A stretch of DNA of 64,000 nucleotides from the NCBI GenBank assembly GCA_016235245.1, contig JACRLO010000013.1:31232-95231 (forward strand), in the 5' to 3' direction. The position numbers were made by a program, and so were the translations under genes. The notes beneath the pieces were generated by a model. The model did not search any database. It saw nothing but the letters and a program-made list of their open reading frames with translations, and was not told the DNA's origin. This document shows, in pieces, positions 7,185 to 9,439 of the stretch. Numbering within the stretch: the first letter of the stretch is position 1; each line of letters begins with the position of its first letter. The stretch is from Nitrospirota bacterium. GTDB lineage: Bacteria; Nitrospirota; Thermodesulfovibrionia; Thermodesulfovibrionales; UBA6898.

Positions 7185-7739
7185 CTACATTTTCCCCCAG
7201 ACGCTCTCTGTCCGGGAAATCTCATGCGGCGCACGCGGCACTACATCGCACCCCAAGCGTTTCAATTCATCAACAACAACCTCTACCAGATGGGCCATGC
7301 TCGCCCTCACCACGTCTGACAGACCTATCACCATAACGATCTCCTTCGGTTCGATGCCAAAGAGCACCATCTTCTTCGGTATCTCATCCGTAAGGGTTGC
7401 GGCAGCCAGAAGATCGGAGATGCCGAGCTGATGAGGTGAAATCCTTGTCAGAAACTGAGCAGGCACGTCCTCTCCTTCGACCCTCAGCACCGTGCCGGGA
7501 GGGTTGCCGCTCTTGATGGCGTCAATGATAATCAGGTAGTCTTTGCCGGAAATATAGGAGAGAAGCTCGATCCCTGAAGTGCCGCCATCGAGTATCTCGA
7601 CATTCTCCGGAAACCGGTAACGCTTCTCTAACTCTTCTACTGCCCGGATACCGATGCCTTCATCCATCATCAGGATGCTGCCCACTCCCATGACAAGGAT
7701 CCTGGGCTGCGATCCTGATGATGACAAAGGGATTTCCAT
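7185..7739 (-). CDS. hybD: hydrogenase maturation endopeptidase (HyaD/HybD type)
   Basis: 184-aa nickel-dependent protease that removes the C-terminal tail of the hydrogenase large subunit once nickel is inserted. Family motifs are present: VMGVGSILMMDEGIG with the nickel-binding Glu, IIIDAIKSG with the Asp, and the His region RISPHQLG. The first base overlaps the last base of hybC, so the two are coupled. Its substrate should be the tail after His551 of HybC (VLDKNRNEIVKVKAV, 15 residues). Confidence 0.94.
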   Translation of the reverse strand: MEIPLSSSGSQPRILVMGVGSILMMDEGIGIRAVEELEKRYRFPENVEILDGGTSGIELLSYISGKDYLIIIDAIKSGNPPGTVLRVEGEDVPAQFLTRISPHQLGISDLLAAATLTDEIPKKMVLFGIEPKEIVMVIGLSDVVRASMAHLVEVVVDELKRLGCDVVPRAPHEISRTESVWGKM

Positions 7740-9439
7740 CAGACGGCCTTGACCTTTACAATCTCATTACGGTTCTTGTCCAGCACATGGATCGCACAGG
7801 CAAGGCAAGGGTCAAAGGAATGGATCGTCCTGAGAACCTCAAGCGGCTTCTCAGGGTCTTTCACCGGAGTGCCCAGGAGCGCAGATTCATAAGGACCAAG
7901 TGCATCCTGACTGTTCCTCGGGCCTGCATTCCAAGTGGACGGCACAACTGCCTGATAATTCTTGATCTTGCCGTTTTCGATCACAATCCAATGCGATAGA
8001 ATGCCTCTTGGGGCTTCATGATAGCCAAAACCTTTCTGAATGCCTGAAGGGAAGGTCGGGACATTAAAAGTCTTGGTGTCACCCTTTGCGATGTTTTCGA
8101 TAAGGGCATTCCATTGGTCCTTCAGCGTATCATAGAGTACTGCGCAACGGATCGAGCGGGCGCCGATCCTGCCGATCGTCGAATGGAGCGCTCCCACACC
8201 GACCTTTGTTCCGGCCAGCGCACTGATCGTATCAAGCATCTTTACAGTATATTTCTTGGTCGGCTCATGGCCTGCGGCAAACATGCAGAGAACATTCGCA
8301 AGCGGTCCGACCTGGGCAGGCTTTCCCATAAAAGTCGGCGACTTGACCCACGAGTATTTCCCCTTATCCTGGAAGTCTGTATATTTCGGAACCGTCTCTC
8401 CATCCCATGGGTGCTTGTCCCAGTCACCGTCATACCAGGAGTGCTTGATGCTCTCCTTCACGTTATCCTTGAAGAAGGCATCGTTATAGCTCGTGATGGC
8501 CTTGAACTTCGTTATATCGCCGTCCGGTATATAGCCGCCGGGAAGCGCAAACTTTGTGCCCTTTGTATCCATCGGCATATCAGGAGCAGACAGATAATTG
8601 GTCACACCCTTTCCGTGTCCGGTCCAATCAGCATAAAACGCCGCAACCGCAGCAGTGTCAACAAGGAGGACGTTTTCGACAAAGTCGCCGACCTTGTCGA
8701 TAAGGGTCTTAATGTAGTAGAGCCGCTCCATGTTCAGCGTTGACTGGCTGTCAAGGTTAATCGGGTTGGATACACCGCCGACCGCCATGTTCTGGATGTG
8801 CGGAGTCTTAGATCCAAGAATCGCCACGACCTTATTAATCTCCCGTTGGTATTCCAGCGCCTGCAGGTAATGATGGGCTGCAAGCATATTCACCTCAGGA
8901 GCAAGCTTCATCGCAGGATGGCCCCAGTAGCCGCTGCCGTATATGCCAAGCTGACCGGAACCGATAAAGGTCTTGAGCCTGTCCTGAGAAGCTTTTACCG
9001 CATCGTAGCTGTTGCCGGTCCAGGGTGAAAGTTTTTGCCCCAGGTTTGCTACGGCCCGTGCGTCCGCCTTGAGCGCAGATACAATGTCTACCCAGTCAAG
9101 CGCTGCAAGGTGATAAAAATGGACAATATGGTCATGGGTGGCGTGGGCGCCCATCATAAGGTTTCTGATAAACTGGGCGTTAAGCGGCACCTCCATCTGG
9201 AGTGCATTTTCGACCGAACGCACTGAAGCCAGTGCGTGAACGGTCGTTCAAACGCCGCAGAAGCGCTGCGTGAATATCCAGGCTTCCCGGGGGTCGCGCC
9301 CTTTCAGGATCGTCTCGATCCCCCTCCACATCTGCCCTGATGACCAGGCATTCGTGACCTTGCCGTTGTCAATCTCGCAGTCTATTCTCAGGTGGCCTTC
9401 AATCCTGGTAATAGGGTCAATGGTAATTCTTTTAGACAT
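7739..9439 (-). CDS. hybC: [NiFe] hydrogenase large subunit HybC with predicted selenocysteine at residue 64
   Basis: Catalytic subunit of a group 1 Hyb-type uptake hydrogenase, 566 aa if the in-frame TGA at 9248-9250 is read as selenocysteine (E. coli HybC is 567 aa). It starts MSKRITIDPITRIEGHLRID. The N-terminal ligand motif reads RFCGV-U-TTVHALAS, with Cys61 intact and TGA in place of the second cysteine. The frame continues without a break on both sides, and the residues next to the TGA fit the family. The C-terminal ligands SFDPCLACAIH (Cys545, Cys548) are both cysteine, followed by a 15-residue cleavable tail. A SECIS-like hairpin follows the TGA at once (9211-9246). In [NiFe] enzymes the second cysteine of each motif bridges Ni and Fe, so Sec would be a bridging ligand. 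The alternative is a nonsense mutation or a base-call error in a Cys codon (TGC/TGT to TGA), but the hairpin argues against it. Its neighbours hybB, hybD and hypC are intact. Confidence 0.88.
9211..9246 (-). promoter_or_regulatory. bacterial SECIS-like hairpin for selenocysteine insertion in hybC
   Basis: Read on the minus strand, the TGA (9250-9248) is followed by one A and then CGACCG, TTC, ACGCACTG, loop GCTT, CAGTGCGT, T, CGGTCG. Both stems (6 bp and 8 bp) are perfectly complementary, separated by a small 3/1 internal loop. The apical loop starts 19 bases after the TGA, has 4 bases and begins with G. This satisfies the general bacterial SECIS model: loop about 16-37 bases after UGA, 3-14 base loop, G in the first two positions. 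It lies wholly in coding sequence that still encodes family-typical residues. Confidence 0.85.

Follow-up and report, generated by a model that had tools for sequence, protein, structure and literature searches.

The window analysed here is a 64,000-nucleotide stretch of a Nitrospirota genome (assembly GCA_016235245.1, contig JACRLO010000013.1, positions 31,232 to 95,231 of the forward strand). Its minus strand carries, at window positions 6896-12853, an intact operon of the hydrogenase-2 (Hyd-2) type, in which the gene for the [NiFe] hydrogenase large subunit contains one in-frame TGA at the codon of the second N-terminal cysteine ligand, where selenocysteine (Sec) is predicted. Directly downstream of this codon the transcript can fold into a hairpin resembling a selenocysteine insertion sequence (SECIS). 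In the order of transcription, the features of the operon are as follows.

11642..12853, minus strand: hydrogenase small subunit of HybO type with twin-arginine translocation (Tat) signal (TIGR00391, 441 bits, over cut-off)
10634..11638, minus strand: HybA-type Fe-S subunit (NF008134, 357 bits, over cut-off)
9498..10628, minus strand: HybB/HmcC-type integral membrane subunit (272 and 260 bits, both below cut-off)
7739..9439, minus strand: HybC-type [NiFe] hydrogenase large subunit, 566 residues with the UGA read through
9257..9259, minus strand: codon UGC of Cys61, first N-terminal ligand (UGA in the UGVU relatives described below)
9248..9250, minus strand: codon 64 (UGA) for a predicted Sec in place of the second Cys of RxCGxC, kept in relatives
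9211..9246, minus strand: SECIS-like hairpin directly 3' of the UGA (-23.2 kcal/mol, z -5.0)
7805..7807, minus strand: codon of Cys545, first C-terminal ligand by alignment (Sec in classical [NiFeSe] enzymes)
7796..7798, minus strand: codon of Cys548, second C-terminal ligand by alignment
7185..7739, minus strand: HyaD/HybD-family maturation endopeptidase (TIGR00140, over cut-off)
6896..7171, minus strand: HypC/HybG-family maturation chaperone (TIGR00074, over cut-off)

The 566-codon frame of the large subunit holds exactly one internal stop, the TGA of codon 64 (minus-strand bases 9250-9248). The translated protein aligned over residues 1-565 to HybC of the E. coli Hyd-2 structure in PDB (E-value 8.5e-238), without gaps at residues 14, 61 and 64 and with one gap before residues 545 and 548, and the E. 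coli residue facing UGA 64 is Cys. The protein is HybC-like in length and in its two CxxC-type ligand motifs with Glu14, residue 64 being the UGA; Glu14, Cys61, Cys545 and Cys548 are all kept, and the C-terminal motif DPCLAC (Cys545, Cys548) is undamaged. An earlier model-generated interpretation of the same letters, hereafter the sequence-only reading, had described a sole TGA at the second cysteine of RxCGxC, an otherwise HybC-like protein in an intact operon, and two cysteines in the C-terminal motif; the frame, the family matches and the alignment bear out all three statements. The large subunit scored 886 bits against NF007778 (hydrogenase 2 large subunit, cut-off 969) and the small subunit 485 bits against NF007779 (cut-off 659); under the NCBI rule the former is related to E. 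coli HybC without being its equivalog. Gene order and family matches point to a Hyd-2-like, membrane-linked, periplasmic H2 enzyme, the activity of which is predicted.

The TGA recurs in many related genomes. Genes are named here by their N-terminal ligands, CGVU denoting Cys at codon 61 and UGA at codon 64, and UGVU denoting UGA at both codons. Among the loci retrieved from 101 genomes (the own genome and 100 relatives), CGV-TGA was present in 21 genomes, i.e. in the own genome and 20 others, and all seven genomes of the same genus were among them. RxUGVU was found in seven further loci, six of them 50-53% identical, and Cys at both N-terminal positions in two relatives of 72-74% identity (loci L035 and L036), so that the comparison proposed in the sequence-only reading, of homologues with TGA or with Cys at this codon, returned both. 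A wider scan used a degenerate DNA pattern, with the first ligand codon as TGN, the second as TGA and the flanking residues back-translated, and covered 84,980 species with a single genome per species. It gave at least 120 loci, and a HybC-type frame was present in all 120 matches listed. By eye, the record titles of these 120 named 54 Nitrospirota-type, 38 Chloroflexota-type and 19 Desulfobacterota or 'Deltaproteobacteria' hosts, together with two Spirochaetota, one Rokuibacteriota, one 'Firmicutes' and five without a phylum name, with at least two pairs sharing one genome each; as most titles indicate metagenome-assembled genomes, the lone odd phylum placements may be binning errors.

After removal of identical rows, reading at the DNA level resulted in 152 genes: 77 UGVU, 57 CGVU and 18 Cys/Cys. 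UGA at the second N-terminal ligand is consequently represented by 134 distinct large-subunit genes, 77 of which have UGA at the first ligand too, in Nitrospirota, Chloroflexota, Desulfobacterota and a few other phyla. Both C-terminal positions were Cys in all 108 UGA-bearing genes that could be read to their stop; of the remaining 26, 24 end with the locus and two have a premature stop, in one case next to unread letters. One genome (G020, locus L222, 3735-13400) carries a CGVU HybOABCD-like operon next to a UGVU pair of small and large subunit genes, which is followed by an open reading frame (ORF) of 218 residues that resembles cytochrome b by eye only, without a search.

The same data bear on the reading that the gene is a pseudogene, that the TGA is a sequencing error, or that translation terminates there and a 494-residue protein is made from a later start. 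Such a form does stand in databases: among 120 homologues listed of 7,995 passing, 19 were 494-residue forms starting just past the TGA, and the other 101 were full length, all with Cys at the site. Annotation pipelines start these proteins after the TGA. A protein starting past codon 64 would, however, miss both N-terminal ligands, and the gene appears to be constrained along its whole length. In comparisons of the window gene with eight relatives, with synonymous divergence (dS) high or saturated in several pairs, the ratio of nonsynonymous to synonymous divergence (dN/dS) was 0.000-0.037 over the 60 codons before the motif (seven of eight pairs computable) and 0.016-0.059 over the 500 codons after it (six of eight), i.e. 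about 0.02 on either side of the UGA. This equal constraint argues for one continuous protein. Given also the selection on the hairpin described below, and the presence of the same UGA in 134 distinct genes of several phyla, which together with the low dN/dS led us to reject a pseudogene or sequencing error, the chance of this reading is next to negligible.

No shuffled sequence out of 200 folded as well as the window hairpin, which has an apical 8-bp stem with the loop GCUU at 9218-9237 of the minus strand. Three hairpin shapes were recognised among the 134 binned genes. Type A, that of the window (33 genes), has its loop mostly 18 nt past the UGA, and type B (97 genes in the bin) has a loop that is mostly CGUGM, 23 nt past the UGA, and includes a bulged subtype. 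Seven genes of a Desulfobacterales branch share a separate hairpin at about 23-41 nt; the type-B bin took in three of them, and the remaining four were assigned to neither bin.

The hairpins were compared with synonymous recodings drawn from each gene's own codons, in windows of 13-33 and 18-38 nt past the UGA that were picked after looking at the data. At 13-33 nt, 32 of 56 CGVU genes were significant at p≤0.01, and at 18-38 nt, 57 of 77 UGVU genes at p≤0.05, while none of the 18 Cys genes was significant in either; control windows in the same genes gave mean z values of -0.07 to -0.19. In bacterial SECIS elements in general, the loop lies 16-37 nt from the UGA, with G among the first two loop positions and a contiguous stem. 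When this rule was applied, 49/56 CGVU, 18/77 UGVU and 0/18 Cys genes were significant at p≤0.05. Conservation of the nucleotides themselves pointed the same way: in 32 type-A genes, six codons just past the UGA that encode an invariant amino acid agreed at 0.96 in their third positions, versus 0.44 for the third positions of 110 invariant codons elsewhere. For type B, covariation was examined in 50 of 80 distinct sequences, picked as folding without a bulge. In these, 98.0% of the cells were paired, 32 cells were changed on both sides against a shuffled mean of 7.7, and the covariation score was 0.293; shuffling gave 0.066, and sliding along the sequence no more than 0.036. The hairpin past the UGA is, on these comparisons, under RNA-level selection.

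Several results weigh against this interpretation of the hairpin, or limit it. Recoding over 4-40 nt failed to tell the classes apart (24/56 CGVU, 2/77 UGVU and 4/18 Cys genes at p≤0.05), and an earlier 39-nt recoding fold gave the UGVU genes a mean z of only -0.44, which hid their hairpin. Of the 18 Cys genes, 11 are close controls, the other seven being distant relatives at 41-47% identity. A raw SECIS score of 12 was reached by 57/57 CGVU and 54/77 UGVU genes, and also by 4/18 Cys genes. The UGVU share under the contiguous-stem rule, as given above, was low, which may come partly from the bulged subtype because the rule cannot see bulges. Covariation, too, is sensitive to the choice of sequences: among the 50 picked ones there were three double-change pairs, a count reached in 54 of 500 shuffles, and when all 80 type-B sequences were taken the paired cells fell to 84.8%, the score was 0.153 versus 0.090 shuffled, and the count of double-change pairs (3) was reached in 64 of 500 shuffles. 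Type A shows no covariation, since its hairpin hardly varies.

Selenocysteine machinery is encoded in the own genome at least in part. A tRNA-Sec (70.9 bits) with the anticodon UCA was found, and none of the other matches to the tRNA-Sec model carries UCA (all 15 matches were read). A Sec-type SelD is encoded at locus L202 (1501-2427, plus strand), with its own in-frame UGA within SCAG-U AAKF; SelD with this UGA represents a second selenoprotein gene of the genome. A search of the own genome gave neither SelA nor a SelB above the cut-off; the place expected for both reads N. The missing SelA therefore says nothing, as the place syntenic to selA-selB, deduced from a sister genome, is unread; for a second sister genome, one selA-selB flank was matched and the other flank had no match. 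The search of the assembly for sel genes that the sequence-only reading had suggested has thus succeeded for selC and selD, and not for selA and selB. The lack of machinery that it named as damaging to its claim is not what the genome presents, with its own tRNA-Sec and SelD, and with SelA in 7/7 genomes of the genus and in each of the 20 other CGVU genomes among the relatives. In one same-genus genome the ORF adjoining SelA is SelB (378 bits, cut-off 242). SelA was present in 48 of 49 genomes carrying the recoded gene (from 50 of the 120 listed loci tested) versus 2 of 14 controls; within the order, such co-occurrence is weak evidence, because SelA is common there whatever the hydrogenase (96 of the 101 genomes).

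Whether the UGA might be decoded as another amino acid was judged from stop codon usage and the tRNAs. Of the 13 genes around the operon with listed stops, five use UGA as their stop, and so does the large-subunit gene itself; UGA thus serves as a stop elsewhere. General reassignment of UGA was rejected on this ground and because homologues have Cys, not Trp, at the site. A more specific proposal is that UGA 64 is read as Cys by a tRNA-Cys(UCA) of selC* type, with or without a second SelB, and that the product is an ordinary [NiFe] hydrogenase. An opal tRNA-Cys with selB* and cysS* has been described for Desulfobacterales in the available text of PMC7609411, and the Desulfobacterales branch is the one with a hairpin of its own. 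Moreover, the Desulfobacteraceae genome of locus L119, which also has HybC with UGA, encodes a UCA tRNA with U73 and A1:U72 (L244, 1501-1591, plus strand), which would make a Cys reading of UGA possible there; ARAGORN labels this gene tRNA-SeC, and its assignment to the selC* tRNA-Cys type is ours. In the own genome, however, the two selC*-like tRNA-Cys have the anticodon GCA and cannot read UGA; among the 15 matches to the tRNA-Sec model, the tRNA-Sec alone could do so. Among the loci retrieved from 24 genomes with the gene, tRNA-Sec(UCA) with G73 was present in 15, the L244 type in one, and neither in eight. The opal-suppressor tRNA-Cys was accordingly rejected for the own genome on account of its GCA anticodons and is kept for the Desulfobacterales branch, where L244 occurs; as an explanation of UGA 64, Cys decoding is very improbable.

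The two tRNA-Cys(GCA) genes of the own genome (L007, 1501-1594, plus strand; L008, 1497-1590, minus strand) have a tRNA-Sec-like long variable arm and U73, and are of the selC* kind reported for Nitrospirae in the portions at hand of PMC7609411. Both adjoin a paralogous small GCxxGCP protein. By eye, without a search, L008 is also accompanied by a YedF/SirA-like ORF and L007 by a 2-hydroxyacyl-CoA-dehydratase-like ORF.

Taken together, UGA 64, which is kept across species along with its hairpin, is very probably read as Sec, and selenium would replace the sulfur of a predicted Ni-Fe bridging cysteine. Support for Sec at the second N-terminal ligand, the central proposal of the sequence-only reading, comes from the conserved UGA, the SECIS-like hairpin under selection, the aligned Cys homologues, and the presence of tRNA-Sec(UCA) and SelD. 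In HybC numbering, we take Cys61 and Cys546 to be the terminal Ni ligands, and Cys64 and Cys549 to bridge Ni and Fe. By homology, residue 64 of the window protein would be a Ni-Fe bridging ligand. Cys546 of Hyd-2 is described as a non-bridging, proton-path ligand in the text available of PMC11212049 and PMC13111528.

As its position, fold and selection suggest, the hairpin right past the UGA would act as a bacterial SECIS, holding SelB with Sec-tRNA(UCA) at the ribosome. Sec would be inserted at codon 64 in a SelB-dependent manner, and the full-length protein would then be matured by the adjoining HypC- and HybD-type proteins. For the inactive Ni-A state, S-oxygenation of a bridging cysteine, without specification of which, has been suggested (PMC7324405, in the part available). 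Selenium as the bridging atom might be oxidised reversibly and re-reduced more easily, and the enzyme might recover in this way. An altered oxygen tolerance or H2 bias is what the sequence-only reading had suggested as a possible effect.

Alternatively, selenium would be present and serve mainly maturation, Sec speeding the transfer of Fe(CN)2CO or Ni into the apo-subunit, with any effect on catalysis or recovery from oxygen being secondary. C241 of HycE is among its four ligand cysteines, and is an N-terminal one. This residue is reported as essential for the interaction with HypC (accessible sections of PMC12134894), and in a natural [NiFeSe] enzyme a change from Sec to Cys lowered Ni incorporation, as cited in the available text of PMC9961374. 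The UGVU relatives, with UGA at both N-terminal positions, would fit a role in maturation too. On the other hand, the C-terminal ligand, at which the known Sec effect on Ni loading is located, is Cys in 108/108 genes read to the stop, and a primary role in maturation is, in our view, possible, if on the unlikely side.

For the UGVU relatives, we consider it probable that a nickel-iron-diselenium site is formed at one terminal and one bridging ligand, encoded by two UGAs nine bases apart with a shared SECIS; the CGVU gene of the window would then represent a single-selenium, bridging form of a trait that arose and changed several times in anaerobes of at least three phyla, and that has been hidden by gene callers starting past the UGA. 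One hairpin could serve both UGAs, because the type-B loop lies 23 nt from the second and 32 nt from the first, within the SECIS range given above.

The phylogenetic distribution is consistent with repeated change. A quick maximum-likelihood tree of 167 rows included 58 of 77 UGVU and 41 of 57 CGVU genes and 68 Cys sequences (50 of the 101 database Cys proteins were left out); its root and some long branches are unsure. The tree requires 13 changes among the three states, and its starred branches alone force six changes between Cys and the rest. Two deep clades contain Sec forms, and the UGVU gene L031 is placed beside the CGVU clade of the window. Judged from this topology, changes of state, whether gain, doubling or loss, occurred repeatedly. 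A full-length Cys protein (P0003) is nested among Sec forms with a support of 92 on a branch that is not starred, and possibly represents a reversal from Sec to Cys. The analysis thereby extends the sequence-only reading, in that the predicted trait is widespread, has changed state repeatedly, and involves UGA at both N-terminal ligands in many relatives.

The truncation has consequences for surveys. A set of environmental hydrogenases, as seen for the type of the window, stands N-terminally truncated in databases, and surveys of H2 metabolism may therefore miss or misjudge them.

Elsewhere in the window, a 6S RNA gene (2785-2967, plus strand, 85 bits) and a tmRNA gene (56361-56708, plus strand, 201.8 bits) with the tag ANNELALAA were identified.

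Among known systems, the [NiFeSe] hydrogenases (HysA of Desulfovibrio and Desulfomicrobium; VhuU and FrhA of methanogens) resemble the window enzyme in that a UGA-encoded Sec, predicted in the present case, ligates the Ni-Fe site. In the classical [NiFeSe] enzymes, Sec occupies the first position of the C-terminal motif and serves as a terminal Ni ligand, whereas the window family has Cys/Cys in that motif and UGA at one or both N-terminal ligands. The family is set apart from the classical group since the defining C-terminal Sec is absent (DPCLAC; Cys/Cys in 108/108), and a classical [NiFeSe] type was rejected for this reason; the window protein likewise did not reach the cut-offs of NF033181 and NF045518, which describe that type (475 bits against 600, and 362 against 780, respectively). 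The predicted novelty is Sec at an N-terminal, Ni-Fe bridging ligand, when the known site is a C-terminal one.

In the literature, a 2026 review gives the Sec-containing alpha subunits the motif UxxC and limits [NiFeSe] enzymes to sulfate reducers and methanogens, and its passages naming hydrogenases or UxxU give no hydrogenase large subunit as CxxU or UxxU (PMC13188914, in the parts available). According to the accessible text of a 2025 review, Sec occasionally replaces one of the four cysteines (PMC12134894), and in a survey of stop codons from 2007 a periplasmic [NiFeSe] large subunit appears in the list of proteins with UGA (PMC1914089, available portion). In the available text of Chloroflexi genome papers, the Sec-containing enzymes named are formate dehydrogenases. 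In the open-access literature searched, as far as its texts were available, no report of Sec at N-terminal hydrogenase ligands was found, in agreement with the sequence-only reading, which knew of no described hydrogenase family of this kind. Two Sec residues spaced by three, as predicted for UGVU, do occur in UxxU selenoproteins (Prx-like, FmdB-like and mercuric-reductase-like; Table 1 of PMC13188914), which are proteins unrelated to hydrogenase.

E. coli hydrogenase-2 (HybOABC) shares with the window operon the small subunit, HybA, HybB, HybC, HybD and HypC types in one operon, and it is the closest solved structure, with equal ligand spacing; E. coli HybC has Cys at position 64, where the window has UGA followed by the SECIS-like hairpin. 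In engineered Hyd-1 and Hyd-2 of E. coli (work of Evans, Krahn, Armstrong and Soell), each of the four Ni-ligand Cys, and hence the one considered here, has been changed singly to Sec, according to the available text of PMC11212049, PMC13111528 and PMC9961374. One C-terminal ligand reportedly proved special among such variants. The genes described here indicate that many anaerobes would use Sec on the opposite side, at the ligand bridging Ni and Fe, and often at two ligands simultaneously. A direct test of selenium at a bridging ligand becomes possible with them, in recovery from the S-oxygenated state, in catalytic bias and in metal loading. The engineered variants are laboratory-made, whereas the genes described here are natural, and 77 of the 134 have UGA at two positions.

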